The notes below the pieces were generated by a model. The model was not told where the DNA came from. It did not search any database and saw only the letters and a program-made list of their open reading frames with translations. A stretch of DNA of 64,000 nt from NCBI RefSeq assembly GCF_014874095.1, contig NZ_JADBEB010000001.1, positions 2,356,001-2,420,000 on the forward strand. The letters run 5' to 3'. Shown here in pieces: positions 42,564-57,347 of the stretch (its first letter is position 1; the number at the start of each line of letters is the position of its first letter). This stretch comes from Plantactinospora soyae. GTDB taxonomy: Bacteria; Actinomycetota; Actinomycetes; Mycobacteriales; Micromonosporaceae. Made by a program: the position numbers and the translations under genes.

Positions 42564-43273
42564 TCCGGAGCAGCGACGACCAGGCCGCCGGCGATTTTGC
42601 CGGCGGCCTGTCCGCGTCCGCCACCGAACCGGACGGCGACGAGGAACTCGACTACCTCGCCGCCCGGCTGATCAACGGCAAGCTCGGTGGTGGACCGGTC
42701 GAGGCGGCCGTCGACCTGCCCCGGATCGAGAAGGCGGTACGGGAGATCCTGATCGCCGTCGGCGAGGATCCGGACCGCGACGGCCTCCGGCAGACACCGG
42801 CCCGGGTCGCCCGGGCGTACGCCGAACTCTTCGCCGGGCTGCGGGTGGACCCCTCCCAGGTGCTCAGCACGACGTTCGAGGCCAACCACGACGAACTGGT
42901 GCTGGTCCGGGACATCGACGTGATGAGCCTCTGCGAGCACCATCTGCTCCCGTTCCGGGGCTCGGCGCACATCGGCTACATCCCGGGGGAGAACGGCCGG
43001 ATCACCGGGCTGTCGAAGCTGGCCCGGCTGGTCGAGGTCTTCGCCCGCCGGCCGCAGGTGCAGGAGCGACTCACCTCGCAGATCGCCGACCTGCTGATGA
43101 CCAAGCTCGAACCGCGTGGCGTGCTGGTCGTGCTGGAGTGCGAGCACATGTGCATGGCGATGCGCGGCATCCAGAAGTCCGGCGCCAGGACCATCACCTC
43201 GGCGGTCCGGGGCCTGCTGAAGGAGGACGCCAAGTCCCGCGCCGAGGCGATGTCCCTGATCATCCGCGGTTGA
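42560..43273 (+). CDS. folE: GTP cyclohydrolase I (apparent CTG start)
   Basis: This enzyme makes dihydroneopterin triphosphate from GTP, the first folate step. The core is unmistakable: [21 protein letters not shown] begins the domain. C-E-H-H-L-L-P-F holds zinc-site residues, and [11 protein letters not shown] holds another Cys. No in-frame ATG, GTG or TTG occurs between the ftsH interior and GTG 42845, which would delete the first conserved helices. The only coupled start is CTG 42560 in a CTGA overlap with the ftsH stop, giving 237 residues. The exact start is therefore uncertain, and a sequence error is an alternative. It is the last folate gene before the secretion island. Confidence 0.85.
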
Positions 43274-43313: not shown

Positions 43314-43742
43314 TCAGAGCAGGTAGATCCCGCCGACGCAGAGCACGACCAGCAGCAGTAGCGCCCCCAGCGCGATCGCACCGTAGAGCAGCACCCGGGG
43401 CCAGGCCAGTGGACCGGTACCCGGCAGCTCGGTGGCCGAGTCCGCCGCGTCGGCGGTCGCCCGGGCCTCCCGCAGCGCCGCCAGCACCGCCTCGGGGCCG
43501 GCGGCCATCGCCCTGCCGGCCGCCGCCACCTCCGGCTCGGACGGCTGCAGGTCCCCCTCGGGTACGCCCAGCGCCCGCAGCCGGGACTGCTGGGGCACCA
43601 GCCGGGCGCGTATCCCGGTCAGCTCCTCCCGAGCGGTGTGTACGCCCTGCGCCTGTCGGCCGGCGGCGGTGGCGGCGGTCCGGCGTACCGCGTCCAGTCG
43701 CTGTGCGGCCGCCAGGTAGTCCTGCCAGGGGTCCTCGCTCAC
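43314..43742 (-). CDS. Small tail-anchored coiled-coil protein of the secretion island
   Basis: This 142-residue protein starts GTGA over the stop of the FtsK-like ATPase gene. The first 100 residues are helical and charged with coiled-coil character (A-A-A-Q-R-L-D-A-V-R-R-T and R-E-E-L-T-G-I-R-A-R-L). The last 25 form one membrane helix, A-I-A-L-G-A-L-L-L-L-V-V-L-C-V. Residues 80-90 are rich in Ala. No family was recognised. The coupling suggests it works with the ATPase, for example as a membrane anchor or adaptor (inference). It is the last gene of the island and convergent to folE. Confidence 0.65.
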   Translation of the reverse strand: MSEDPWQDYLAAAQRLDAVRRTAATAAGRQAQGVHTAREELTGIRARLVPQQSRLRALGVPEGDLQPSEPEVAAAGRAMAAGPEAVLAALREARATADAADSATELPGTGPLAWPRVLLYGAIALGALLLLVVLCVGGIYLL

Positions 43743-46465
43743 CGCGTACTCACCTCCGTCGGTGTGGCGTACGGGACGACCAGACTGGCCCGGTCGGTGC
43801 GGCGGTCGTACAGCAGGGCGCGGCCCGGACGGGGTCGCCACCGTACGGCCCGACCGAGCAACCGGGCCACCTCCGGCTCGGGTACGTCGAGGAAGAGCAG
43901 GTGGTCGATCGTCGCCGCGTTCCCCGGTTCCGTGGCCGACTCCGCACCACCCGACCGCGCACCACCCGACTCCGTACCGTCGGGATCCGTGCCGTCGGGG
44001 TGCGTGTCCTCGGGTGCCGGGGCCCGGTCGGTGCTCGGTTCCGGTTCGGCCACGGCCGCGATCAGGTCGGCGAACCGGCGGATGCCGCGCCACCAGGCGA
44101 TCAGGTGCACCCCCCGGGCCGGTCCGTCCCGGAGCAGCGCCCGCAGCCGCTCCACCGGAACGGTATCGGGATCTGCCCCGTCCATCCCGAAGATCACCAG
44201 GTAGCCGGGCCCGCCGAGATCCAGCGCGGCGGCCAGGCCGGCGGCGTCGACCTGGTCGACCGGGTGCCGCCGGGCGAGTGCGGCGGACAACGCCGCCGCC
44301 GTCGGTTCCGCCTCGGCGACCAGCGCCGCGACCACGAATCGGACCTCACCGGGAGCGTGTTGCCCGGCCAGGCTCCGGGCCAGGCCGTCCAGCACGTCCT
44401 CGGCGGCCGAACCCGGCCCGAGCACCGCGAGATGTCGGCCCGGCGACCGGTCGAACGGGACCGCCGCCGGATGCAGCGGCACCTCGACCACCTGGCCGAC
44501 CAGCGCGACAACGCCTCCGGCGGGGTCGGCGGTCGGCTCCGGACCGTCCGGCCGGGGCGGGGCCAGGTAGCCGGTGAAGACGGCCGGGCCGGCCGACCCG
44601 GCGGGCCGGTCCGCCCAGAGCCGGTGCCGCAGCAGGGCGAGCGCGTCGGGGTCGGCATGCGGGTCGGGGAACCGGACCATCCGCTCGTGTCCCCGGGTGG
44701 CGCCGCGCGGTCCGCCGAGCCCGCCGGCCGTGTTGACCACCGCCGTACCGAGCGGCAGACCGGCCGCCGCGTCGTTCGCCGGCTCCAGCACGTCCGCACC
44801 GCCGGGCAGCGCCACCCGGACCGGGAACTGCGCGAGGAAGGAGTCCCGCCGGGCCCGCAGCGCGGCTAGGGCCGGCGTCGGCCCACTGGTCAGGATCAGG
44901 TGTACGCCTGCCGAGCGCCCGCGCCGGGCCACCGACTCCAGCCGGCCGAGCGCCTCGGTGGTCAACGCGTCGTCCTCGGCGAGCAGCATCGGAAACTCGT
45001 CCAGCACGCAGAGGATCCGCCGCTGATCCGGTTCGGTGGCTCGACGGTCCAGTTCCGCGTCGAGTTCACGGAGCAGTGCGAGGCCGTACTCCCGATCGGC
45101 CTGTACGCCGACCGCGCGGACGTGCGGCAACCAGGGCCGGCCCGGTTCGGCGCCGTCCTCGGGCAGGAAGCCGTCGGCCCGCTCCGGAACGAACTCGGTG
45201 AACGCGGTGCCGTCGGCGAAGTCGGCGAGGTAGAGGGCCAACTCGTCGGGGTGGTACCGGGCGCACAGGCCGTAGAGCACGTTGATCAGGAAGGCGCTCT
45301 TGCCGGCGCCGGCCCGGCCGCCGACCAGCCAGTGCGGGGTGCGCTCGTCGAAGCCGAGCGGAACCGGCCGCTCCCCGGCGTGGCCGACCGTGGTGCCCAG
45401 ACCTCCCGCCGCGCTCTCGGTCCAGAGCCCGTCCGACGGCTCGGGCAACAGGTCGTCGAGCGTGCGACGGTAGTCGGCCTGGAACCGGGCGGCGAGGTCC
45501 CGGCAGACCCGGTCCAGCAGTGGAACCGGCGGGGACTCGTCGAGGAACACCGGGGCGTTCAGGCCGGTGCCGGGCAGGTGCGGTGCGGGGCTTCCGAACG
45601 AGGCCCCGGGCGGATCGCCGACCAGCGCGTACGGGTTGCGCAGCGCGATCATCGTGCTCCGGGACAGCGGTGCCTGACTGGTCTGCGCGGTCAGCGGCGG
45701 GGGCGGCCAGCCCGCGACGATCAGGTGCAGGGCAGCTTCGGGGCCCTCCCGGGCCAGTGCGCCGATCCGGGCCAGGTCGGCCGGTTCGGTCAGCTCCGGC
45801 AGCGAGCCGATCACCACCAGCAGGGTGCGGTCGTGCCGGTTGTACCGGGCGGTGGTCGGACGGGTCGGCCGTACCCACTGCTCCGCCTCGGTCAGTACGG
45901 CCCGCAGCCCGGCGCGGTCGGTGACCGGCGGCGGCATCAGGCCGGCGTCGGCGAGCGGCGCGAAGGGCGCGAAGAGCTGGCCCGAGGTGGCCGAGTCGAC
46001 CCCGCGCACCAGCAGTGCGCCGGCCGGGGCGGCGGCGAGCAGCCGGAGCAGCACGGACCGGAGCAGGCCGGCGACCCGTGGATCGCGGCTGTCCGCGTCG
46101 ACCGTGAGGTGCCCGGTGCCGAGCAGCGGTATCACCGCCGGGAACCGCGCGTCGTCGAGCGGCTGGGCGATGCCGATCCGGACGAACGCCGGCAGGGCCG
46201 GCCCGCCCAGCGGGGCGTCCTCGGACTGGGCGTCCAGCGGCGCGCCGAGCCAGCCGGGGGCGAGCAGGCTCGCGGCGGCCCGCAACCGCTCGGCGAGTTC
46301 GTGCTGTTCCCGCTGGTCGGCGGGGACGGGCCGGATCGCGTCGAGTGCGCTGGCCGCGGCGGCGGTGGTGGCGGCGGCCCGGCGGTGCAGCGCGGCGGCG
46401 GTACCGGCGGCGGCCCGCCAGCGGAGCGTGGCGGCCGGGCTGGTCGGTCCCCTCCAGGTCTCCAC
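43739..46465 (-). CDS. FtsK/SpoIIIE-domain ATPase of the secretion island (TcpA/EccC-like)
   Basis: This 908-residue protein has no obvious membrane helix. An N-terminal region of about 370 residues resembles a degenerate nucleotide-binding domain. The active FtsK-type domain has a P-loop G-R-A-G-A-G-K-S (383-390) and a Walker B I-L-C-V-L-D-E-F around Asp489. A further ATPase-like fold without a clear P-loop follows. The layout recalls EccC-type proteins and FtsK/TcpA-like coupling ATPases. The GTG at 46465 has GGAGGAG nine bases upstream. It overlaps the small tail-anchored protein gene by GTGA. It could be the substrate-recruiting ATPase of the type IV-like apparatus (inference). Confidence 0.82.
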   Translation of the reverse strand: METWRGPTSPAATLRWRAAAGTAAALHRRAAATTAAAASALDAIRPVPADQREQHELAERLRAAASLLAPGWLGAPLDAQSEDAPLGGPALPAFVRIGIAQPLDDARFPAVIPLLGTGHLTVDADSRDPRVAGLLRSVLLRLLAAAPAGALLVRGVDSATSGQLFAPFAPLADAGLMPPPVTDRAGLRAVLTEAEQWVRPTRPTTARYNRHDRTLLVVIGSLPELTEPADLARIGALAREGPEAALHLIVAGWPPPPLTAQTSQAPLSRSTMIALRNPYALVGDPPGASFGSPAPHLPGTGLNAPVFLDESPPVPLLDRVCRDLAARFQADYRRTLDDLLPEPSDGLWTESAAGGLGTTVGHAGERPVPLGFDERTPHWLVGGRAGAGKSAFLINVLYGLCARYHPDELALYLADFADGTAFTEFVPERADGFLPEDGAEPGRPWLPHVRAVGVQADREYGLALLRELDAELDRRATEPDQRRILCVLDEFPMLLAEDDALTTEALGRLESVARRGRSAGVHLILTSGPTPALAALRARRDSFLAQFPVRVALPGGADVLEPANDAAAGLPLGTAVVNTAGGLGGPRGATRGHERMVRFPDPHADPDALALLRHRLWADRPAGSAGPAVFTGYLAPPRPDGPEPTADPAGGVVALVGQVVEVPLHPAAVPFDRSPGRHLAVLGPGSAAEDVLDGLARSLAGQHAPGEVRFVVAALVAEAEPTAAALSAALARRHPVDQVDAAGLAAALDLGGPGYLVIFGMDGADPDTVPVERLRALLRDGPARGVHLIAWWRGIRRFADLIAAVAEPEPSTDRAPAPEDTHPDGTDPDGTESGGARSGGAESATEPGNAATIDHLLFLDVPEPEVARLLGRAVRWRPRPGRALLYDRRTDRASLVVPYATPTEVSTR

Positions 46466-46806
46466 CGCACCAACTCCTCCGCCTGTCGGCCCTGGCGGGC
46501 ACCCGCGCCGGGCGCCCTCGTCCTGGCCACGGAGCACCCGCAGGCGCGTCGCCTCGTCCTGGACTCCAGACGGTATCCCAGCCGACCGGCATCTTTGCGG
46601 ACCTGCGGCGATGGTCGGCGAGGAACTTGTGGCACAGTTGGCGGTCGGTACCTCCAGAGCTGGTGCGCGCACCACCGGTGGCCAGGGTGGACGCCCGATC
46701 GCGGCGCCGGGGCGGGCTGGCGGAAATTACGGGTTGCTCCCGTTTGGTTACCAAGCTGGAATTCGCGGCCATTGGGTACGGGAGCGCCAGCCGATAGCCT
46801 CGAGGG
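46466..46806. other. Divergent gap between the FtsK-like gene and the NTF2-like gene
   Basis: 341 bases between divergent genes. The GGAGGAG of the FtsK-like gene is at its left edge. No hairpin, gene or operator was recognised. The stretch 46715-46760 is relatively AT-rich and may contain the plus-strand promoter. Confidence 0.4.
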
Positions 46807-47376
46807 GTGGAATCAGTGCACCCCCCGGCCGATTCCCAGGTGTCCCGCGTACCCACGCAACGGACCCCGCCCGGACAGGCCGTCCCCGAGCCGGTCGCCC
46901 CGCCACCGGCGCCCCGCCGCAGGCGGCTGCCCGTCGTACTGGCGGTGGTCGGTGGCGCACTGGCACTGCTCTGCCTGGCCGGCGTCGCCGTCGCGTACGT
47001 CGCCTACGACCGCTTCACCGCACCCGACCGCAGCGCCCCGGACGTGGTCGTCGACAACTACCTGCGGTCCTACCTGGTCGACCGCAACGACGTACTGGCC
47101 GGCGAGTTCGAGTGCGCAGACTCCTCGGCGGGACTGGCCGAGCTGGCCGGGCTGCGGACCGACCTGACCGCCCGGGAGAAGCAGTTCCAGGTCACCTTCG
47201 TGGTCAAGTGGGGCCCGCTGGACGTACGCGCCCAGGAGAGCCGGGCCGAGGTCTTCGTGGAACTCGTGATCTCGTACCGGGTCGACAACCTGAACCAGAG
47301 CGAGCACCAACGGTGGCGGTTCGTCACCGAGCAGGACGACGGCTGGCGGGTCTGCGAGGCGGGACGGGCGAACTGA
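46807..47376 (+). CDS. Single-span protein with NTF2-like external domain
   Basis: This 189-residue protein has a Pro-rich cytoplasmic N-terminus, a membrane span at about residues 40-65, and an external alpha+beta domain of about 115 residues (V-V-D-N-Y-L-R-S-Y-L-V to D-D-G-W-R-V-C). It contains two cysteines. The size and strand pattern resemble NTF2-like modules of VirB8/TcpC or Mce-associated proteins; this is a fold-level guess. It is the only plus-strand gene within the minus-strand island, so it may be separately regulated. A second NTF2-like membrane protein lies at 49218-49763. Confidence 0.6.
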   Translation: MESVHPPADSQVSRVPTQRTPPGQAVPEPVAPPPAPRRRRLPVVLAVVGGALALLCLAGVAVAYVAYDRFTAPDRSAPDVVVDNYLRSYLVDRNDVLAGEFECADSSAGLAELAGLRTDLTAREKQFQVTFVVKWGPLDVRAQESRAEVFVELVISYRVDNLNQSEHQRWRFVTEQDDGWRVCEAGRAN

Positions 47377-47409
47377 CCCCGTCCGTCCGCGGCGACGCCG
47401 CCGGTGTGG

Positions 47410-48066
47410 TCACTCGATCCAGAGCAGGTGGACCGGCACCTCCAGGGTGGTCGGCGGCCGGCCGCTCCACGCCCAGCGGTACCAGTCCAACTCGGCGGTG
47501 ACCCGTACGCAGATGTCCCCGTCGGCGCTGGTGTGGACCTCGGTGACGGCCCGCAGGTCGCGTCGCTCCACCCCGTCGGCGACCTGCACCACCCGGCGGC
47601 CGGCGACCGCGTCCGCCTCGACGACCGGCACCGGGGACCGGTGTGTCGGCGCGTCCAGCGACACCAGCCGGGAGATCACGTCGGACCGGGCCGGCCGGGG
47701 GATCGGCGATCCGCCGCCCTCCCACGAGGACGCCTCGCCGAGCGTCTCCACCCAGACCCGGTCCGCGGGCACCAGCGGCGCGAAGACCTCGATCTGCTCG
47801 GCCTCGGCCCGGTACCACTCGTGTTCGGCCAGCACCGGCACGTAGGTACGGCTGCCCTGCACCACCCGCTCGTCCGCCCGCAGGTCGGCCCGCCAGCCGA
47901 GCCCGGGCAGGCCGACGAGCACCCGTCGCCCCCGCAGGTCCACCCGGCTGGAGGCGGCGGCCAGGACGATCGGTCGAGGCGGCGCCGGAGCCCAGTCGGG
48001 CTGCCCGGCGAAGGGATCAGGAAGTGGATCGTGACTCACGGGTCGCTCCGCCGGTTCATCCGCCAT
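47410..48066 (-). CDS. Hypothetical soluble protein of the secretion island
   Basis: This 218-residue protein has no signal or membrane span. It is beta-rich with several Trp residues and contains repeated short strands such as R-V-L-V-G-L-P-G-L-G-W and V-R-V-T-A-E-L-D-W-Y-R-W. I recognise no family. It overlaps the 3' end of the transglycosylase/M23 gene by 11 bases, so it is co-transcribed with the apparatus. Convergent with the NTF2-like gene. An accessory or regulatory role is possible but unsupported. Confidence 0.55.
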   Translation of the reverse strand: MADEPAERPVSHDPLPDPFAGQPDWAPAPPRPIVLAAASSRVDLRGRRVLVGLPGLGWRADLRADERVVQGSRTYVPVLAEHEWYRAEAEQIEVFAPLVPADRVWVETLGEASSWEGGGSPIPRPARSDVISRLVSLDAPTHRSPVPVVEADAVAGRRVVQVADGVERRDLRAVTEVHTSADGDICVRVTAELDWYRWAWSGRPPTTLEVPVHLLWIE

Positions 48067-49192
48067 CGGTCAGCGGAGCGCCCCGGTCCCGCATGAACGG
48101 CACCGGGTTGGTCGCGCCGTTCTTGCTCCGGTCCCCGCGCAGGTGCACCTCGAAGTGCAGGTGCGGCCCGGAGGAGTTGCCGCTCGAACCGACCCTGCCG
48201 ATCACCTGCCCGGCCTCCACCATGTCGTTCTTCGCCACCATCGGTCTGCTGACCATATGGCAGTACCGGGTGATCACGTTGCCCGCGTGCAGAATGTCGA
48301 CGAACCAGCCGCAGCCGCCCTTGCCCGGATAGCCGTCGACGTCACAGCTCAACCGGCCCCGCCGGTCCGGGTCACAGCGGGACACCAGTACCCGGCCGTC
48401 CGCCACCGCGCGGATCTTGGTGGTGTACTTCGGGGCTCCGATGTCGACGCCGTTGTGCGACGGCCGCTCGGCGGTCTGGAATCCGGAACCGACCCCGCCG
48501 GGGATCGGTGCCGTCCAGCCGGACGCGGCGATGTCCGCCCCGTCGGCGCAGTCGAGCGCGACGTTCGTGCCGACGGACCGGGCCGCCCCGCCGGTCAACG
48601 CGTTCACGATCTCCGTCGCGATCGGCTCGTGCTTGGCGTACGCGTCCGGGAAGGCGCTGACCTGCACCGCCTGGGCGGCGGCGGAGAGTGGCCGCCGCTG
48701 CCAGCTCCGTACCTTCGTCAACTTCTCGTAGAACTTCCGGGCCGTGTACTCGGGAGTGCGCAACTGGGTCGGGGTGCCCCAGCCCTGGCTGGGCCGCTGC
48801 TGGAACAGCCCGACCGAGTCGTGGTCGTTGTCCGAACCCAGGTGCGGCAGGTTGGCCAGGCCGGACTCCTGCATCGCCGTGGCGACGGCGATCACCCAAC
48901 CGCGCGGTGGGATGCCCATCTCCTTGCCGACCTTGATGATGACCGCCGCGTTGCGCATCTGCGCGGCCTTGTACGGCCCGACCAGCGGCAGGTCGCCGTC
49001 GACGGTGATCGGGCCCTTTGAGCCGCAGCCGAGGGTCGCCGCCGCCAGGTTCTCCTCCTCGTTGGCGAACATGGTCACCAGGAACGCGACGGTCCCACCG
49101 GTACAGCAGAGCAGGGCGAGTGTCGCGGTCAGCGCGACCGCCAACGCGACCCGGCGGACCGGCCGCCGGGTCGTCGGACCGTGGTCAGTCAT
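48056..49192 (-). CDS. Transglycosylase-like + M23 metallopeptidase cell-wall hydrolase (TcpG-like)
   Basis: This 378-residue protein has one N-terminal membrane anchor (about residues 15-42). A transglycosylase-like domain (70-200) has Glu109 in A-M-Q-E-S-G-L and the S-V-G-L-F-Q-Q-R-P motif. The M23 domain (235-365) has His246 and Asp250 in H-N-G-V-D and His344-Leu-His346 in G-P-H-L-H-F-E-V. Such two-domain peptidoglycan hydrolases open the wall for Gram-positive conjugation channels. The ATG at 49192 gives the correct anchor; the longer reading lacks support. Its position 25 bases after the TcpC-like gene and before the ATPase genes fits an assembly factor of the apparatus. Confidence 0.88.
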   Translation of the reverse strand: MTDHGPTTRRPVRRVALAVALTATLALLCCTGGTVAFLVTMFANEEENLAAATLGCGSKGPITVDGDLPLVGPYKAAQMRNAAVIIKVGKEMGIPPRGWVIAVATAMQESGLANLPHLGSDNDHDSVGLFQQRPSQGWGTPTQLRTPEYTARKFYEKLTKVRSWQRRPLSAAAQAVQVSAFPDAYAKHEPIATEIVNALTGGAARSVGTNVALDCADGADIAASGWTAPIPGGVGSGFQTAERPSHNGVDIGAPKYTTKIRAVADGRVLVSRCDPDRRGRLSCDVDGYPGKGGCGWFVDILHAGNVITRYCHMVSRPMVAKNDMVEAGQVIGRVGSSGNSSGPHLHFEVHLRGDRSKNGATNPVPFMRDRGAPLTDGG

Positions 49193-49217
49193 CCCGCCCC
49201 CACCTTCCGCGCCCGCC

Positions 49218-49763
49218 TCAGCGCCGTTGCCAGTCCACCGTGTCGACCTGCCACCGACCCTCCGGCGCGACCAGACCGAGCCGGAGTTCGCCGGAGTCCA
49301 CCGGAACGACCACCTCGACGAGGCTGTCGTTGCGGGGTACCACCACCGGATCGCCGGTGATCCGGTCCGCCGGTACACCGATCGGGTCGACACCGCTGAG
49401 CTTCTCGGCCAGTGCGGCCGTGGCCAGCGGCCGGAGCGTCTTGTGCCACTCCTCCGCCGTCACGTCGCGATGATCGAGCCAGGCGGTGGCGAACGACCGG
49501 GCCACCGCCACCGGAGCCGGAGCCCCCGGGCTGGTCCACGGCGTCGGCTCCTCGACCACCGTCAGCCCGTCGTCACCCGCCGACGGGTCGGTGGTGCTGA
49601 TCGGGCTGACCGGGCCGCCGCGCAGACCGGACGCGTCGCTGCCGGGCCCGGCGACCAGCCGGGCCGCGCCGACGATGCCGATGATGACGATGGCGAGCCC
49701 GAGCGCCAGGCCGAGCCGGGACCGCAGGACCCGGGTGAGGAGGAACTCGATCGCCCGCCGCAT
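49218..49763 (-). CDS. VirB8/TcpC-like single-span protein
   Basis: This 181-residue protein has one membrane helix (residues 15-38, L-A-L-G-L-A-I-V-I-I-G-I-V-G-A-A) and an external domain of about 110 residues beginning A-R-S-F-A-T-A-W-L-D-H. Its position six bases after a VirB6-like gene, its size and its topology fit the NTF2-like bridging protein of type IV channels (VirB8, TcpC). This is a structural argument; no diagnostic motif exists for that family. Confidence 0.65.
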   Translation of the reverse strand: MRRAIEFLLTRVLRSRLGLALGLAIVIIGIVGAARLVAGPGSDASGLRGGPVSPISTTDPSAGDDGLTVVEEPTPWTSPGAPAPVAVARSFATAWLDHRDVTAEEWHKTLRPLATAALAEKLSGVDPIGVPADRITGDPVVVPRNDSLVEVVVPVDSGELRLGLVAPEGRWQVDTVDWQRR

Positions 49764-49769
49764 GCCAGG

Positions 49770-51719
49770 TCACCTGGCCTCGGAGCGGATCCGGGGTGCC
49801 GCCGCCGGCTTCGGCTCGGGCACCGGCGCCGAGTCGGGCCGGTAGATGACGTAGGACGGGTTCTCCGCCGGTACGTCGGGCTCGGTCCATTCCGCCGGAC
49901 GGCGCCGGGACGGCCGGCCCGGTGTCGGCCGGGATCCGGAACCCCGTTCGGCGGGGCTCGTCGGCGCCGTGGTGGCCGGTTCGGCCGCCCGCTCGGTGGC
50001 GTTCTCCGAACGGGTGCCGGCGCCGTGCGACGGATCCTCGTGCCGGCTCTCCGGCCGGACGTTGGTCTGCTGGATGACCAGGTTGCGGTTCTTGACCCGT
50101 ACGTCACCGTCCCGGTCGTCCGCCGGGTCGAGCCGGGACGCGGCCCGGACGTCCCGGAAGAACCGGCGGTGCCACGAGCCGGCCGCGCCGATCACCTCGG
50201 TGCTGTCCTTGCCACCGAGTTGGGTGATCCGGCGGTACGGGCGCAGCAGCAGCCAACCCACCACACCGCACAGCCAGACCAGCACCACCTGCAACCAGCC
50301 GGGAATGGTGGAGGTGGTCATCACCAGGTCCACCGCCAACAGGTAGATGGCGGCGCCGGTGCCGAAGATGGCGATGTTGAAGATGGCCGCCACCACGGCG
50401 TTGCCCAGCCGGCGTATCCCGGCGCTGGCCGGGCGCATCAGGCCCACCGTGCCGAGCACCGGGGCGGCGATCACGGCCCAACGGAAGAGCAGGAAGCCGA
50501 GCAGCACCAGTACCGAGGCGGTCAGGTCGAACATCGCGAACAGGATCGCGGCCAGGATGGCGATCAGTCCGGCGCCGATCCGGTCCGAGTCGCGGGCGCC
50601 GCGCAGGTACTCGTACGCCTCCTTGTCCTCGGCCTTGATCTGTTCGGCGACCTTCAGCCACTGCTTCTTCTTGGCCTCGACCGTGGCGTCCCGGGTACCC
50701 GGGTTCGCGTCGATCTTCGCCGCCTCTTCCCAGCTCAACGCCTTGGCGTCGTACAGCGCGCGGCCATACTTGCGGGCCGTCTCGCTGTCCGAGGAGCCGA
50801 GCGCGCCGCGCAGCCAGTTGCGGTAGAGCATCGTCTCGGTCGCCGTGTCGCTGGCCCGTACCGCCGGTGGCCGGTTGTCCTTGCAGCTATCGGGGCGCAG
50901 CGACGCGCACCGGTCGGCCGGGATGTCCTTGGCCCGGGGACCGACCGCCTCGTGCACCACGTTGAGCGTGGTCACGAGGGTGCCGTCGGCGAGGTTGGCC
51001 GACCGGACCGGCCAGGCGGCGATGGCGGTCACCGCGACCATCACCAGCAGCGCCCAGCCGACGGTGGTCATCGCGTTGCTCATGTCGGACTGCCGGGACC
51101 GCCAGAGCAGGTAGAGGCCGACCACGCAGAGGGTGATGATGCCGAAGACGCTGAAGACCCGTTCGTAGACGGCCCTGGTGGCCTGCTCGACCAGGGGATC
51201 GGCCCAGTCCCACATGGTCCGGGGATCCCAGGCCCGCTCGCGCAACGCGTTCGAGGCGCCGATGATCGCGGTGGCGATCCGGATCTCGCCGTCGGCGATC
51301 TTGTTGAACACCTTGCTGCCCGGATCGATCACGTCCGAGGCGCAGCCGCCCGAGTCGTCGTACGTCTCGTAGCTGTAGCCGGCGTTGCCGTACTCGGTGT
51401 ACAGCCCCTTCACGCCCGGCTGCTTGCTCGCCTCGGGGCGGGACGCGAACCAGCCGGCCAGACCGGAGTCCGGCTTGGTCGGGGTCGGCGCGTTCAGGCA
51501 CTGGGCGGTGGCCTGGCTGACGTCGGCGAGCCGGTCGACGCAGGCGCGGAAGTCCGCCTCCCACTCGGCGGTGGTGCAGAGGGCGACCTTGGCCCGGGTC
51601 GGGATCGGGGCGGCCGACGCGGGCGCGGCGCTGCCGAGCACCGGCCAGACGAGGGTGGCGCTCGCGAGCACCCCGATCGCGAGCAGCAGGGCGGCGACGC
51701 GGGCTCCGATCCTCGCCAT
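49770..51719 (-). CDS. VirB6/TrbL-like polytopic membrane protein
   Basis: This 649-residue protein starts at ATG 51719, two bases after the VirB4-like stop, with GGAGG upstream inside that gene. A signal-like N-terminus (1-37) is followed by an external Cys-containing domain (to about 175). About six to eight hydrophobic segments follow (185-510, such as F-G-I-I-T-L-C-V-V-G-L-Y-L-L-W). A charged disordered tail of about 130 residues ends in Pro/Glu/Arg-rich sequence. The layout matches the TrbL/VirB6/TcpH channel component of Gram-positive type IV systems. It would form the inner-membrane pore of the apparatus. Confidence 0.75.
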   Translation of the reverse strand: MARIGARVAALLLAIGVLASATLVWPVLGSAAPASAAPIPTRAKVALCTTAEWEADFRACVDRLADVSQATAQCLNAPTPTKPDSGLAGWFASRPEASKQPGVKGLYTEYGNAGYSYETYDDSGGCASDVIDPGSKVFNKIADGEIRIATAIIGASNALRERAWDPRTMWDWADPLVEQATRAVYERVFSVFGIITLCVVGLYLLWRSRQSDMSNAMTTVGWALLVMVAVTAIAAWPVRSANLADGTLVTTLNVVHEAVGPRAKDIPADRCASLRPDSCKDNRPPAVRASDTATETMLYRNWLRGALGSSDSETARKYGRALYDAKALSWEEAAKIDANPGTRDATVEAKKKQWLKVAEQIKAEDKEAYEYLRGARDSDRIGAGLIAILAAILFAMFDLTASVLVLLGFLLFRWAVIAAPVLGTVGLMRPASAGIRRLGNAVVAAIFNIAIFGTGAAIYLLAVDLVMTTSTIPGWLQVVLVWLCGVVGWLLLRPYRRITQLGGKDSTEVIGAAGSWHRRFFRDVRAASRLDPADDRDGDVRVKNRNLVIQQTNVRPESRHEDPSHGAGTRSENATERAAEPATTAPTSPAERGSGSRPTPGRPSRRRPAEWTEPDVPAENPSYVIYRPDSAPVPEPKPAAAPRIRSEAR

Positions 51720-51721
51720 GG

Positions 51722-54700
51722 TCAAGCCTCCAGGTCCGCGATCGGGGAGGGCAGGTTCGACGTGACGGCCTTGGCCGTGACCGGGGTGGTGTCGAGGTGG
51801 TCGAGCAGACCCGCCACGTACGACACGTCGACCCGGACCTTCTGCACCCGGCCGTCCACGTCACGCATCACGAACTCGCGGAAGCCGAGTCGGTCCGCCG
51901 ACGCGCTGTCCACGGCCGACAGCGAGGCGAGGGTCGCCTCGTAGCCGTCGTTCACCGGCACCCGGAGCAGGCGCAACGCCTCCGAGGCGATGTCGACGTC
52001 CTCGGCGATCCGCCCGACGAAGACGGTGGAGACGAGGTTCTGCACGTCGAGACCGAGGATGTCCTTCGGGTTCTGCGAGGAGACCAGTGCCGCCAGGTTC
52101 CACTTCCGGGAGTCCCGGGCCAGCCGGACCAGGAACGACCGGCCGGACCGCCAGCCCTCCATGAAGTGCGCCTCGTCCAGTCCGACCATCTTGCGGGACG
52201 ACATCGAGCCGCCGTAGCAGCGGCGTACCGCCAGCCGGTGCGCCGTGTGCAGCATCGGCAGCGCGAGGGCCTCCTCGGCGGACCAGTACTCCCGTTCGAT
52301 CTTCAGGTCGGGCAGCCGAAGCCCGGCCATGGTGATCACGGTCAGCGTGGCGTCGGCACCGAGCAGACCCTCCGGCGGGCGGCCGAAGAAGAGCAGCGCG
52401 AGCGGCATCTCGGCCGTGTCGAGCAGCAGGTTCGCCAGTTCCCGGCCCTCGTCCTCCAGCCCGGACAGGCAGGCCACCACGTCGTCCAGGGTGGACGTCT
52501 CCTCGGCCGGTACCTGTCGGACCGCGTGCCGGAACAGCGTCGCGGTGGACGCCTCCCGGGCCACCTGCGGCGGCACCAGCATCATGCAGATGTCCTGGAC
52601 CAGCATCCGCCGTTCGGCCCGGGCGTTGGAGACCGCGATCTGGAACTCCCGGTCGCCGCCCGTGCCGGCCGGGAACTCGGTGCGCAGCGGGGTGGGAATC
52701 AGCGCGTACGGGGCCAGCGTGCCGTGCTCGGAGCCGGTCAGGTTCAACACCCGGGAGTACGGCCGCAGTTCCGGCATCGAGCAGAGCCGGGCGAGCGGGC
52801 CGGACGGGTCCAGCAGGGTCACCTGGACTCCGCGCCGGGCGTTCAGGTAACCGAGGGCACCGAGCAGGGTCGACTTGCCACCGCCCGGCTCGGCGACGAA
52901 GACGGCGAGCCCGGAGCGTTCCCGGACCTCCATCGGGAAGTGCAGGTCGAGGAAGACCGGCCGGCGGCAGGTCCCCGCGGTCCGGCCGATCAGGTCACCG
53001 CGCCGGTCGCCGACCGTGGAGGCGGCCTGCGGCAGTGCGGCGGCGAGCAGGTTGACCGGCATCCGGCGCAGGTATCCGGTGTTGGCGATCGGCTCGCCGG
53101 GAATGAACTCGCGGGCCAGCCAGTCCTGGTTCTTCGGGTGCTGCAACGAGATGCGCAGCTCCCGCGAGTAGAGCTGGATCAGCCGGCGGGCCCGCTCCAG
53201 GCACTCCTCCCGGGTACGCCCACCGACCGCGATCCGGTGCCAGCCGTGCGCGCGGGCGGACTCCACCGGCAGGCCGGTGGTCATCTCGTCGCCGATCACC
53301 AGTGCCCGTTTGGCCAGCCGTTCCAGCTCCGGCGGGGCGTCGATGCCGTGCTCGGCGTAGTCGAGCTGCTGGGACCGGATCATCCGCAGCCGGTGCTCCA
53401 GGTTCCGGAAGGAGTCGCCGGGACCGAGGATGTCGACCCGGGTGGAGATCTCCATCGGCCAGGGCAGCCGCTCGTGGAAGTGCAGCCAGGGCTCGTGCCG
53501 CTCGGGGATCTCCAGCGGCTCCATCCGGCCCACCGCCAGTACGGCGACGTGCCGCTCCTCCCCGGTCATCCGGTTGACCAGCTTGACCGTCGACCCGTAC
53601 GGGGTGCGGTAGCGCTCGACCTGCTCGGTCAGGGCGAGCAGGTCACCGCGTTCCCAGTGCCCGTTGGTGATCGGGGAGAGGGTGCCCGGGGGTGCCATGC
53701 AGAGCGCGACGGAGCGGTAGAGCAGCCACTCCAGCTCCTCGGCGGTGACCTGTCGGCCGCGCATGCCGAACGCGCCCAGCACCTCGTCGAACTGCTCCAC
53801 GGTGCGCCCGAGCTTGCGCCGCTCGCCGTCGGCGACCCCACGGCCGAACGCGCGCAGGACCCGCTCGGCGAGGTTGTTCCCCAGCGACCGGCGGGCGAAC
53901 GTGACGCCGAGATAGGTCTGGCCCTCGGCGTGGTTGACCGAGAGCAGGTGGCGCTGGGCGGCGACCAGGTGGTCCGACCAGCTCGGCGCTCCCGAAACGG
54001 TGGCCAGCGGTGCCGGGGTGTGCGAGTCGATCGTCCGGGCCCACTCGTCGGCCGGGAACGGCCGGGTGGTGCGGCGCAGGTGCAGCCGGAACCCGGCGAG
54101 CCCGGCGTACTGCTCGGAGATCGCCGAGAGCAGCGCCTCCCGCTCGGCGTCCGGCCGGAAGGCCCAACGCACCTCCGGCAGCCAGTACCAGGCGGTGACG
54201 GTGTTCGGCGTGAACGTCAGGTGACCGGCTATCTCGGTGATCGCCAGCTCGACGGCGGGATCACGGTCGCCGAACCGGACCTTCGGCGCGCGTACCCGCT
54301 GGGCCTTCGTCACCGCCACCGGTTCCGGCCGGGCCGGCTTCGACTTCGACCGCCGCTGTTTCGGCGCGACCGGGCCCGGGTCACGATCGGGCCGGCCGGC
54401 CGGACGCCGGGCCGGCGCGGGCGCCGCCTGGTCGGCGGGCTCGCGGACCACCGGCAGGATCGCCGGCTGCTCGCCGCCGCGCTGGTGCGGCGCGGGGCTC
54501 GGCCGCCCGCCGAACGTCTCGGGCGCGACGGTGGTCGGCGCCGTGCTGGCGGCGGATGCCGGCGGGTCGGCCGGCCAGCCGGCGGCGGGCGTCGTACCGG
54601 AGCCGTAGCGGGTCGCCTCGGTGTCCTGGAACGCGGCTCCGGCCTGGCTGCCGAGTGCCGGGGTGTTCCGGAGGGCGGGTTCGGCGGCGTCGGCACCCGG

Positions 54701-55270
54701 GCCGGGGCCGGCGAACCGGGGCGACGGCCCGGGACTCGGGTAGCCGGCCTGGTGGGGCCGCGCATCGTCCGGTTGCCCGGGCGGGAGGGCGGCCGGTTGG
54801 CCGTGCTGCGGGGGCGGGGCGGGTTGGGGCCGGTCCGGCGCCGACTCGTCCGGTTTCCAGGCGGGCAGGCCGACGGGGGCCTCGGGTTCCTCGCCCCACC
54901 GGCCCGGCCGATGCGGCGACGGCGTACGCGGGGCCCGGGCCGGTGCCGGTCCGGGGGGCGGCGGCTGGAGCGGGCCGGCACCGAAGAGGTCGAGGAAGGG
55001 CGAGTCGATGTCCGGATGTTCCGCCGGGGGCGCCGGTCGGGCCGCGGGTGCCCCGGCGGAAGGCCGGGCCGGCCGGTTCCGGGCCGGTGGCTGGGGTGCC
55101 TGGAACACCGCGACGCCGCCGTGCCCGGTGTTGCTGAGCAGCGCGGCGTCGTACTCGCTCTCGTCGGCGGGATCCGACGGCAGGTAGTCGGAGGACTGCG
55201 TACCGTTACCGGTACCGTCGGTCGGCCGACCTGCCGGGTACGGGGACCCCGGCGTGGCGGAGCGGGTCAT
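51722..55270 (-). CDS. VirB4/TcpF-like ATPase with long disordered N-terminus
   Basis: This 1182-residue protein has Walker A P-G-G-G-K-S (about residues 795-800) and Walker B G-L-D-E-A-H-F (Asp1032, Glu1033), plus a S-S-Q-N-P-K-D sensor-type segment. This gives the VirB4 C-terminal ATPase layout, following an N-terminal VirB4 domain (about 330-750). Residues 1-325 are an unusual Pro/Ala/Gly-rich region with no fold, making the protein longer than typical VirB4 (about 800). The ATG at 55270 makes an ATGA junction with a 20-codon mini-ORF. VirB4 energises pilus or channel assembly. It is followed immediately by the VirB6-like gene. Confidence 0.85.
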   Translation of the reverse strand: MTRSATPGSPYPAGRPTDGTGNGTQSSDYLPSDPADESEYDAALLSNTGHGGVAVFQAPQPPARNRPARPSAGAPAARPAPPAEHPDIDSPFLDLFGAGPLQPPPPGPAPARAPRTPSPHRPGRWGEEPEAPVGLPAWKPDESAPDRPQPAPPPQHGQPAALPPGQPDDARPHQAGYPSPGPSPRFAGPGPGADAAEPALRNTPALGSQAGAAFQDTEATRYGSGTTPAAGWPADPPASAASTAPTTVAPETFGGRPSPAPHQRGGEQPAILPVVREPADQAAPAPARRPAGRPDRDPGPVAPKQRRSKSKPARPEPVAVTKAQRVRAPKVRFGDRDPAVELAITEIAGHLTFTPNTVTAWYWLPEVRWAFRPDAEREALLSAISEQYAGLAGFRLHLRRTTRPFPADEWARTIDSHTPAPLATVSGAPSWSDHLVAAQRHLLSVNHAEGQTYLGVTFARRSLGNNLAERVLRAFGRGVADGERRKLGRTVEQFDEVLGAFGMRGRQVTAEELEWLLYRSVALCMAPPGTLSPITNGHWERGDLLALTEQVERYRTPYGSTVKLVNRMTGEERHVAVLAVGRMEPLEIPERHEPWLHFHERLPWPMEISTRVDILGPGDSFRNLEHRLRMIRSQQLDYAEHGIDAPPELERLAKRALVIGDEMTTGLPVESARAHGWHRIAVGGRTREECLERARRLIQLYSRELRISLQHPKNQDWLAREFIPGEPIANTGYLRRMPVNLLAAALPQAASTVGDRRGDLIGRTAGTCRRPVFLDLHFPMEVRERSGLAVFVAEPGGGKSTLLGALGYLNARRGVQVTLLDPSGPLARLCSMPELRPYSRVLNLTGSEHGTLAPYALIPTPLRTEFPAGTGGDREFQIAVSNARAERRMLVQDICMMLVPPQVAREASTATLFRHAVRQVPAEETSTLDDVVACLSGLEDEGRELANLLLDTAEMPLALLFFGRPPEGLLGADATLTVITMAGLRLPDLKIEREYWSAEEALALPMLHTAHRLAVRRCYGGSMSSRKMVGLDEAHFMEGWRSGRSFLVRLARDSRKWNLAALVSSQNPKDILGLDVQNLVSTVFVGRIAEDVDIASEALRLLRVPVNDGYEATLASLSAVDSASADRLGFREFVMRDVDGRVQKVRVDVSYVAGLLDHLDTTPVTAKAVTSNLPSPIADLEA

Positions 55271-55329
55271 GCCGCCGCCTCGCCCGGACCGGCAGCCCGT
55301 ACCGCAATCCACTCGCTCCACTCGTTCAT
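55267..55329 (-). CDS. Mini-ORF of 20 codons coupled to virB4
   Basis: ATG at 55329 encodes M-N-E-W-S-E-W-I-A-V-R-A-A-G-P-G-E-A-A-A and ends in an ATGA overlap with the virB4-like ATG. Its own start overlaps the stop of another mini-ORF. It is probably a leader peptide that couples translation of the TcpE-like and VirB4-like genes. It may be a chance reading frame. Confidence 0.35.
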   Translation of the reverse strand: MNEWSEWIAVRAAGPGEAAA

Positions 55330-55355
55330 GCCGTCACCTCGCCGCGTTCGGTCAT
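55326..55355 (-). CDS. Mini-ORF of nine codons after the TcpE-like gene
   Basis: ATG at 55355 overlaps the TcpE-like stop (ATGA), encodes M-T-E-R-G-E-V-T-A, and its stop overlaps the next mini-ORF start (ATGA). Three successive ATGA junctions at one gene border are unlikely by simple chance, but a peptide product is unproven. Confidence 0.3.
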   Translation of the reverse strand: MTERGEVTA

Positions 55356-55714
55356 GTCAACCGCTCCCGGATCCGGATGCGGGTCGCGACCAGTCGTGGG
55401 TCGCGCTGCTCTGTCGCCGGTTCGCGGGTGCGCCGCCAGTCGGTCAGCGCCGTCCGGATGACCATCCGGGCGGGGCGATCGGGGTCGACGTACCGGAAGA
55501 TGAATGAGGTGGAGACGATGGCGAGGGCGATCTCCCAGGCGGGGATCAACTCGACGCTGAGCGTGAACAGCCAGTGGATGAACATGTAGAGCAGCACCAG
55601 CAACATGAAGAGCCCGTACTGCGTGTAAGGCAGGTGTACGGGCAGGGTGTAGCCGGGCGGCCCCAGGTAGACCAGGCGGGCCCGATAGATGTCGTCGTCG
55701 GTGCGCAGCCGCAT
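55352..55714 (-). CDS. TcpE/VirB3-like small membrane protein
   Basis: This 120-residue protein has two central hydrophobic helices (about 33-80, F-M-L-L-V-L-L-Y-M-F-I-H-W and I-A-L-A-I-V-S-T-S-F-I-F) between charged termini. This is the VirB3/TcpE/PrgI-type layout that usually precedes VirB4 genes. A GGAG site lies eight bases before the ATG. It is followed directly by the VirB4-like gene through two coupled mini-ORFs. Family assignment is by topology and gene order, not by motif. Confidence 0.7.
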   Translation of the reverse strand: MRLRTDDDIYRARLVYLGPPGYTLPVHLPYTQYGLFMLLVLLYMFIHWLFTLSVELIPAWEIALAIVSTSFIFRYVDPDRPARMVIRTALTDWRRTREPATEQRDPRLVATRIRIRERLT

Positions 55715-55730
55715 CTTCGTGCTCCGCGGT

Positions 55731-56048
55731 CTACTCGAAGATCAGGTTGATCAGGTTCTCGCCAACGAAGAACAGCGTCGCCGCCCCGGCGATGAAGGCC
55801 AGGCCGAGCAGCGCGATAGCCGAGCTGGTCAGTACCTTCGAGACCTCGCCCTTGCTGGCCCGGCCGATGAAGATCACGCCGAGTACGGCGAGCAGGATCG
55901 GCGCGATGTTGGTGGCGAAGAAGTTGACGACGCCAGAGGTGTCGATATTGCCCTCTGGAGCCGGCTCGGCCAGCGGGATGAGCGAGAGAGTGTGGAGCGC
56001 GTGCGTGGCAGCCGGCCATGCCGTCTCCACCAGCTCCATGGCGAACAT
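55731..56048 (-). CDS. VirB2/TrbC-like pilin-type membrane protein, first island gene
   Basis: This 105-residue protein has an N-terminal segment of about 40 residues and two hydrophobic helices (P-I-L-L-A-V-L-G-V-I-F-I-G and I-A-L-L-G-L-A-F-I-A-G-A), separated by a short positively charged loop, R-A-S-K-G-E-V-S-K. That is the topology of VirB2/TrbC pilins and of small channel subunits. A GAGGAT ribosome site precedes the ATG. It is the promoter-proximal gene of the minus-strand block and is divergent from folP, so it probably carries the operon promoter. Confidence 0.7.
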   Translation of the reverse strand: MFAMELVETAWPAATHALHTLSLIPLAEPAPEGNIDTSGVVNFFATNIAPILLAVLGVIFIGRASKGEVSKVLTSSAIALLGLAFIAGAATLFFVGENLINLIFE

Positions 56049-56450: not shown

Positions 56451-57347
56451 GTGACCGAGTTCGTCCAGGACCCCGCCACGCCCGGCGACGGATCCACGTC
56501 AGACGGCGACCTGCTCCGCCAGCGCCCGCCGGTGGTGATGGGCGTCCTCAATGTCACGCCCGACTCCTTCTCCGACGGCGGCCGGTACGCCGACCTCGAC
56601 GCCGCGGTGCGGCACGGCGTACAGATGCACCGCGACGGCGCACACCTGATCGACGTGGGCGGCGAGTCGACCCGCCCCGGTGCAGACAGGGTGGACGCCG
56701 AGACCGAGGCGGCCCGGATCCTGCCGGTCATCCGGGAACTCGCCGCCCGGGGCGTACCGATGAGCGTCGACACGTACCGGGCCGGCGTCGCGGCCGCCGC
56801 GCTGGACGCCGGCGCCACGGTCGTCAACGACGTCTCCGGCGGGCTCGCCGATCCGGACATGGCGAAGGTGGTCGCCGAGGCGGGCTGCCCGTGGATCCTG
56901 ATGCACTGGCGGGGGCATGCCAAGCGGATGCAGGAGCTGGCCCGGTACACCGACGTGGTGGTGGACGTGAAGGCCGAGTTGGCCGAGCGGATCGCCGACG
57001 CCCTCGCGGCCGGGGTCGCCGCCGACCGCATCGTGATCGACCCGGGACTCGGGTTCGCCAAGCGGGCCGGGGACAACTGGCAGCTCACCGCCCGCTTTCC
57101 GGAACTGCTCGGCCTCGGCTACCCGGTGCTCGTCGCGGCCAGCCGCAAGTCGTACCTCGGTGTGCTGCTCGCCGGGCCGGACGGCACCCCCCGGCCGACC
57201 GGGGAGCGGACCGCCGCGACGATCGCCACCAGCGTTCTCGCGGTCGCCTCCGGCGCCTTCGGGGTACGGGTGCACGACGTACGGGAGACCGTGGACGCCC
57301 TCGCGGTGTGGGTGGCCAGTGGGCGGCCCCGGCTGGTGACCGGATGA
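56451..57347 (+). CDS. folP: Dihydropteroate synthase
   Basis: This 298-residue enzyme joins hydroxymethyl-dihydropterin pyrophosphate and para-aminobenzoate. The two signatures are clear: V-M-G-V-L-N-V-T-P-D-S-F-S-D-G-G and G-A-H-L-I-D-V-G-G-E-S-T-R-P-G. The C-terminal A-A-S-R-K-S-Y-L-G-V-L-L carries the conserved Ser-Arg-Lys of the pterin site. It starts GTG after the 402-base gap and overlaps folB by ATGA, so folP-folB-folK form one coupled operon. In related actinomycetes folE directly precedes this set; here 13 kb of secretion genes intervene. Confidence 0.96.
   Translation: MTEFVQDPATPGDGSTSDGDLLRQRPPVVMGVLNVTPDSFSDGGRYADLDAAVRHGVQMHRDGAHLIDVGGESTRPGADRVDAETEAARILPVIRELAARGVPMSVDTYRAGVAAAALDAGATVVNDVSGGLADPDMAKVVAEAGCPWILMHWRGHAKRMQELARYTDVVVDVKAELAERIADALAAGVAADRIVIDPGLGFAKRAGDNWQLTARFPELLGLGYPVLVAASRKSYLGVLLAGPDGTPRPTGERTAATIATSVLAVASGAFGVRVHDVRETVDALAVWVASGRPRLVTG

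Follow-up and report, generated by a model that had tools for sequence, protein, structure and literature searches.

The region under study lies in a 64,000-nucleotide stretch of the Plantactinospora soyae genome (9.7 Mb, one contig), hereafter the window, and is composed of ten genes spanning ~43314-56048 between folE, which ends at 43273, and folP, which starts at 56451. All ten are supported by codon-position GC of coding type or by conserved reading frames. Seven of them form an operon-like run on the minus strand, encoding VirB2-like, VirB3/TcpE-like, VirB4, VirB6-like and VirB8-like proteins, a lysozyme-like/M23 hydrolase and a 218-aa protein; next come a gene on the plus strand, encoding a membrane-anchored protein, and a second minus-strand unit made of an FtsK-like ATPase and a tail-anchored protein (Table 1). 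The start retained for VirB4 is that of database entry P0012, and the closest VirB4s in the database come from Plantactinospora. An earlier reading of the bare sequence, the original prediction, had placed a one-strand block with a single opposite gene exactly between folE and folP-folB-folK; the flanking genes, ftsH-folE on one side and folP-folB-folK-DUF3180 on the other, agree with it. The genes that it named are found, and the 218-aa protein, which it left unnamed, completes the set.

Table 1. Genes of the block, with positions in the window
Gene product	Position	Strand	Basis
Small VirB2-like membrane protein with two helices, 105 aa, opening the channel operon	55731-56048	-	plasmid-module matches
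TcpE/VirB3-like membrane protein, 120 aa	55352-55714	-	plasmid-module matches
VirB4-like ATPase, 1182 aa, proline-rich N-terminal tail	51722-55270	-	Pfam AAA_10
VirB6-like polytopic membrane protein, 651 aa	49770-51725	-	plasmid-module matches
VirB8/TcpC-like membrane-anchored protein, 181 aa	49218-49763	-	plasmid-module matches
Lysozyme-like + M23 peptidoglycan hydrolase, 378 aa	48056-49192	-	Pfam M23 and plasmid hydrolase match
Soluble protein, 218 aa, last gene of the channel operon	47410-48066	-	homologs on Streptomyces plasmids
Membrane-anchored protein, 189 aa, fast evolving	46807-47376	+	one predicted membrane helix
EccC-like ATPase, 908 aa	43739-46465	-	FtsK_SpoIIIE domain, profile and Foldseek matches
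Tail-anchored helical partner, 142 aa, start overlapping the ATPase stop	43314-43742	-	C-terminal membrane helix

By sequence, the block is a type IV secretion system (T4SS) gene set, six of its genes being collinear with and homologous to genes of actinomycete plasmids, in line with the Gram-positive channel classes that had been proposed for it. Scanning all ten proteins against Pfam gave matches above cut-off for AAA_10 in VirB4 (E 2.7e-19), Peptidase_M23 in the hydrolase (1.6e-22) and FtsK_SpoIIIE in the ATPase (1.3e-12), and none for the other seven; a SLT_3 match of the hydrolase stays under the Pfam cut-off. VirB4 also matches NCBIfam TcpF (E 3.7e-16, under cut-off), and the sole match of its profile in the PDB is a solved VirB4, 4ag5 of Thermoanaerobacter. 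A protein search of plasmids revealed T4SS modules on Streptomyces sp. SN-593 pRVR2 and on plasmids of Nonomuraea sp. NBC_00507, Rhodococcus pyridinivorans SB3094 and Pseudonocardia sp. DSM 110487, all with the order VirB2-like, VirB3/TcpE-like, VirB4, VirB6-like, VirB8-like and wall hydrolase (for the Pseudonocardia plasmid, by annotation only). We compared the neighbouring genes in the Streptomyces, Nonomuraea and Rhodococcus modules, where the gene order is the same as in the block; note that the E-values refer to a set of only 29 proteins. VirB4 is 31-37% identical to its plasmid counterparts, the VirB6-like protein matches the gene after VirB4 on all three plasmids (23-30% identity, E 4e-48 to 5e-22) and the VirB3-like protein matches the second module gene, again on all three (28-31% identity). 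The VirB8-like protein matches the plasmid genes at the same place with E 4e-10, 4e-5 and, weakly, 0.017, and finds no TcpC family in the Pfam and NCBIfam scans. For the VirB2-like protein, the first module gene is matched in Streptomyces (8.6e-6) and Rhodococcus (1.5e-5), with no match in the Nonomuraea module.

The lysozyme-like part of the hydrolase is 54% identical to the same part of the Streptomyces plasmid hydrolase and 32% to that of a second module, and the match to the third extends over the M23 domain. A Glu and the M23 H/D and HxH residues, which we take to be an active-site-like residue and the M23 motif, respectively, are conserved in 95% or more of the 81 sequences aligned. VirB4 keeps its Walker A motif in 73/73 orthologs and LDEAH in 72/73. 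The block therefore holds the Gram-positive T4SS features of a VirB4 with an intact ATP site, VirB6-like and VirB3/TcpE-like neighbours and a peptidoglycan hydrolase. Four Streptomyces plasmids, each with a VirB4 module too, encode homologs of the 218-aa protein; the model of this protein (pLDDT 84.6) predicts two SH3/Tudor-like barrels, with weak fold matches. The plasmid modules differ from the block in that their hydrolase domain is C40 or M23, that the two tested for it have a TcpA/FtsK-type ATPase, and that their VirB4s are without the D-I-D-S-P-F-L-D-L-F tail motif, which occurs in 47 of the 48 readable tails of the Micromonosporaceae family and in 0/16 aligned VirB4s from outside it; the block, in contrast, is chromosomal and fixed.

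This fixation was assessed across the Micromonosporaceae, a family of major antibiotic producers. The best 80 of 527 relatives from a scan of genome contigs were retained as loci; all belong to the Micromonosporaceae, under at least nine genus names. A comparison of the folE-folP interval, suggested in the original prediction, gave the same ten-gene order at the same place in 50/50 of the loci with both flanks visible, over 12.7-14.4 kb. The plus-strand protein, whose NCBIfam match to Rv0361_Cterm (E 2.7e-6) is under cut-off, is present in 79/80 loci, and the VirB2-like gene in 65/80, most of the remaining loci being truncated at the end of a contig or flank. The VirB3-like protein was found, mostly as a single copy, in 192/200 family genomes (179/184 good ones; 42/44 genera) and in 1/60 genomes of the class, that one being the window's own. 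Outside the family, the gap between folE and folP is only 29-150 bases in 6 of the 10 out-group genomes inspected, indicating that the block is an insertion in the Micromonosporaceae line. Mean identity to the window is 88-89% for VirB4 and the VirB3-like protein, similar to FtsH and FolE (87-89%). The ATPase and its partner, as well as the VirB8-like and plus-strand proteins, average 51-55%.

Our interpretation is that a plasmid-type channel was turned into a fixed chromosomal function. The proposal that the system is domesticated, and not a live element, is supported by the collinear plasmid homology, the 50/50 fixed place, the presence in 192/200 genomes, and the lack of a tRNA in the window (ARAGORN) and of a flanking repeat: the junction stretches compared share no direct repeat longer than 10 bases, and that one is GC-only. 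In 1-kb windows, the GC content inside the block (0.69-0.79) resembles that of its surroundings. We consider it highly improbable that the block is an ordinary integrative element or remnant, since the kinship with plasmid modules and the empty folE-folP site of out-groups, which would suit such an origin, have to be set against family-wide fixation and order, strong purifying selection and the lack of flanking repeats; a live integrative element is refuted by the family-wide fixed place and order and by the lack of any junction repeat above 10 bases. The predicted absence of a relaxase holds for PF03432, the sole relaxase family searched, of which the source genome has none, but says little by itself, because no relaxase is annotated close to the related modules on the Streptomyces, Nonomuraea and Rhodococcus plasmids either.

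We then turn to the ATPase, the sole candidate of the block for a coupling protein (VirD4/TcpA class sought). Its N-terminal helices are followed by a RecA-like domain that lacks a P-loop, a motor domain carrying Walker A and B, and a second domain, again without P-loop. Its best profile match and its best Foldseek match are both EccC, the type VII secretion ATPase, and its N-terminal domain resembles the EccC DUF domain; a VIA comparison ranked the FtsK motor domain first, and the EccC family profile scores far under cut-off. The 'FtsK' gene is nearest in sequence to EccC, and not to the DNA pumps of the two tested plasmid modules. The earlier description of an FtsK-type ATPase needs amending as to the closest relative, EccC, and as to activity, since the protein is a likely pseudo-ATPase in the majority of the Micromonospora and Salinispora sampled (see below). 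Like EccC/EssC, it has several ATPase domains in a row and an N-terminal domain of DUF-like kind; unlike them, it sits in a T4SS block, has two ATPase-like domains, one of them P-loop-bearing, instead of three, and lacks their membrane helices, no N-terminal membrane helix being predicted. The pCW3 cp-type TcpA systems of Clostridium perfringens share the TcpE-like, VirB4 and hydrolase classes with the block, which differs from them by having an EccC-like ATPase and no TcpA-type coupling protein.

Among the ten block proteins scanned, no family match was found for WXG100, EccB, EccD or EccE. Elsewhere in the source genome, at ~1.28 Mb (L164) and 1.43 Mb (L165) of contig G000:C1, there are two type VII secretion system (T7SS) loci with EccB over cut-off and EccE, and with WXG100 in L165. 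The small tail-anchored partner predicted for the ATPase is confirmed in its C-terminal membrane helix, found by a simple hydropathy rule in 49/64 complete orthologs, and in its overlap with the ATPase stop; on a Rhodococcus plasmid, an EccC-like ATPase is also followed by a tail-anchored gene. This 'FtsK' gene nearest EccC, with a tail-anchored partner after it, is a new observation. The sole mention of the block that we found is of a lone virB4-like gene among neighbours of no known function (PMC4182475), T4SS coupling proteins are all placed within the SpoIIIE/FtsK/HerA superfamily with VirB4 as the signature subunit (PMC12857230), and a known protein kinship between T4SS and T7SS is that of TraF and EssB/YukC (PMC13037476).

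The window's own copy of the ATPase has both Walker A and B, and both the Walker Lys and Glu are intact in 12/70 orthologs, from Plantactinospora, Actinoplanes types, Asanoa and Phytohabitans. In 57/70, the Walker A Lys is replaced by Arg and the Walker B Glu by Asn, Gly or Ser; one further copy (L007) alone has Val for Lys with DE kept. The 57 altered ATPases form one clade in a tree of VirB4, VirB6 and the hydrolase. The dN/dS ratio of the ATPase ranges over 0.06-0.25 in ten altered-clade pairs and 0.08-0.26 in three intact pairs, and the former values show that the altered copies stay under purifying selection, suggesting that the ATPase is kept for something besides ATP turnover. Most of the Micromonospora and Salinispora sampled thus have what is likely a pseudo-ATPase, and the loss of both residues makes DNA pumping by this EccC-like protein unlikely in the species of the altered clade. 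These data bear on the idea of a domesticated, relaxase-free DNA-transfer channel through which hyphae or cells of the family would exchange double-stranded DNA. It would fit the window's intact Walker motifs, the channel genes shared with plasmids whose modules have DNA-translocase-type ATPases, and the requirement for conjugation of the SLP2 transfer genes, cited as plasmid relatives (PMC2782261). We nevertheless regard it as unlikely in view of the EccC-like nature of the ATPase, the change of both Walker motifs in 57/70 orthologs, the lack of a PF03432 relaxase and the fixed place of the block, single copy in most genomes.

Exceptions to the complete block inform on its organization. The VirB3-like protein is missing from 8/200 genomes, of which G064, G122 and G153 are fragmented or have low completeness. 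One genus lacks it in each of the three genomes sampled; G082, of the same genus, keeps beside folE the partner and a 639-aa ATPase with an intact P-loop and no C-terminal domain. In two genomes of another genus, only a homolog of the 218-aa protein (37%) is kept beside folE. In 4/80 loci, an unrelated 3.7-5.2 kb follows the plus-strand gene, with no ATPase gene there. Together with G082, these loci indicate that the channel and the ATPase pair, though linked, can be separated. This separability would also be expected if the block consisted of two unrelated adjacent units, the channel operon from the VirB2-like to the 218-aa protein and an EccC-like + tail-anchored pair serving stress or conflict functions, as its plasmid relatives seem to. 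It would agree with the arrangement as two transcription units on either side of an opposite-strand gene, and with the EccC-like relatives in an Hsp70-TPR-GrpE operon, beside TerD genes and beside WXG100/VWA/kinase genes, but the units occur together in 73/80 loci, with 3 of the other 7 cut by the sequence end, and we hold this reading to be very unlikely.

Some loci present features of their own. In L022, L034, L065 and L082, unrelated sequence stands in place of the ATPase-partner-folE side, and the downstream frames of the first three are alike, as after a shared rearrangement. In G158 (L150:8944-9573) and G144 (L151:8481-9128), both without the block, the 218-aa-protein homolog and folE are separated by a gene that encodes a repeat protein with abundant D-x-D-G-D-G calcium-binding-like repeats.

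Since the EccC-like protein would hardly be a motor in most sampled Micromonospora and Salinispora, the simplest reading would be protein export driven by VirB4. Put more fully, the block is a chromosomal T4SS gene set held by the Micromonosporaceae, in which a VirB4-powered channel would export protein and the EccC-like ATPase would recruit the substrate rather than pump DNA, a reading to which we give about an even chance. The VirB2/3/6/8-like proteins would form the membrane pore, with the wall opened by the lysozyme-like/M23 hydrolase. The main motor would be VirB4, its long N-terminal tail docking partners. The tail-anchored partner would hold at the membrane the EccC-like protein, which would receive the substrate, and the 218-aa protein may be a cytosolic accessory. 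More tentatively, the whole might be a hybrid machine, a type IV channel combined with a type VII-like EccC receptor and its tail-anchored partner, in which a plasmid DNA-transfer module became a family-wide protein exporter and the receptor turned once into a pseudo-ATPase, leaving VirB4 as the sole motor. If true, this would offer a natural example of a T4SS retained in the absence of conjugation and of a T4SS/T7SS mixture with a dated loss of the receptor's ATPase, and would bear on what a VirB4 channel does once DNA transfer has ceased.

The families considered here are, like Streptomyces, mycelial, spore-forming actinomycetes, which counts in favour of a different role, that of a T4SS-derived developmental envelope or chromosome-segregation complex, similar to cmdABCDEF, that acts inside the hypha or sporangium and does not need export. 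The cmd genes (SCO4126-4131) of Streptomyces coelicolor are a chromosomal membrane-protein cluster with a VirB4-like membrane-bound ATPase, tied by the authors to plasmid transfer genes; this cluster acts in development, and its deletion causes a sporulation defect with 6-8% anucleate spores and leaves transfer of an SLP2-derived plasmid unchanged (PMC2782261). The likeness to the block was judged by description. The gene sets differ: cmd includes a cmdC-type SCO6880 gene and, in the accessible part of that article, no annotated hydrolase or EccC-like ATPase (PMC2782261), whereas the SCO6880 family has no match in the block and none over cut-off anywhere in the source genome. As a complete channel with a wall hydrolase also exceeds the needs of a segregation complex, we judge this role rather improbable, if less so than DNA transfer, and retain VirB4-driven protein export as the preferred reading.

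A parallel VirB4 lineage is present in the Pseudonocardiaceae (Saccharopolyspora, Amycolatopsis, Pseudonocardia and others), 37-38% identical to the block's VirB4 and on contigs of up to 9.9 Mb. Unlike the Micromonosporaceae VirB4s, it clusters with the plasmid modules in the tree and has no tail motif. Its occurrence on chromosome-sized contigs suggests that T4SS domestication happened more than once. Among these VirB4s, P0361, P0370, P0371, P0298, P0293 and others have short branches, as for a vertically inherited gene.

Two relatives of the EccC-like ATPase were met on plasmids in other settings. On plasmid NZ_CP070617.1 of Rhodococcus pseudokoreensis (L163:10181-16777), it belongs to an Hsp70 - TPR - GrpE - EccC-like ATPase - tail-anchored protein operon with no adjoining T4SS or T7SS genes, possibly a chaperone-linked ATPase system. 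On the proteobacterial plasmid pSBC2-5 of Caballeronia sp. SBC2 (L167:2567-13401), an EccC-like ATPase has WXG100, two VWA, CARF, PP2C, kinase and AAA genes as neighbours.

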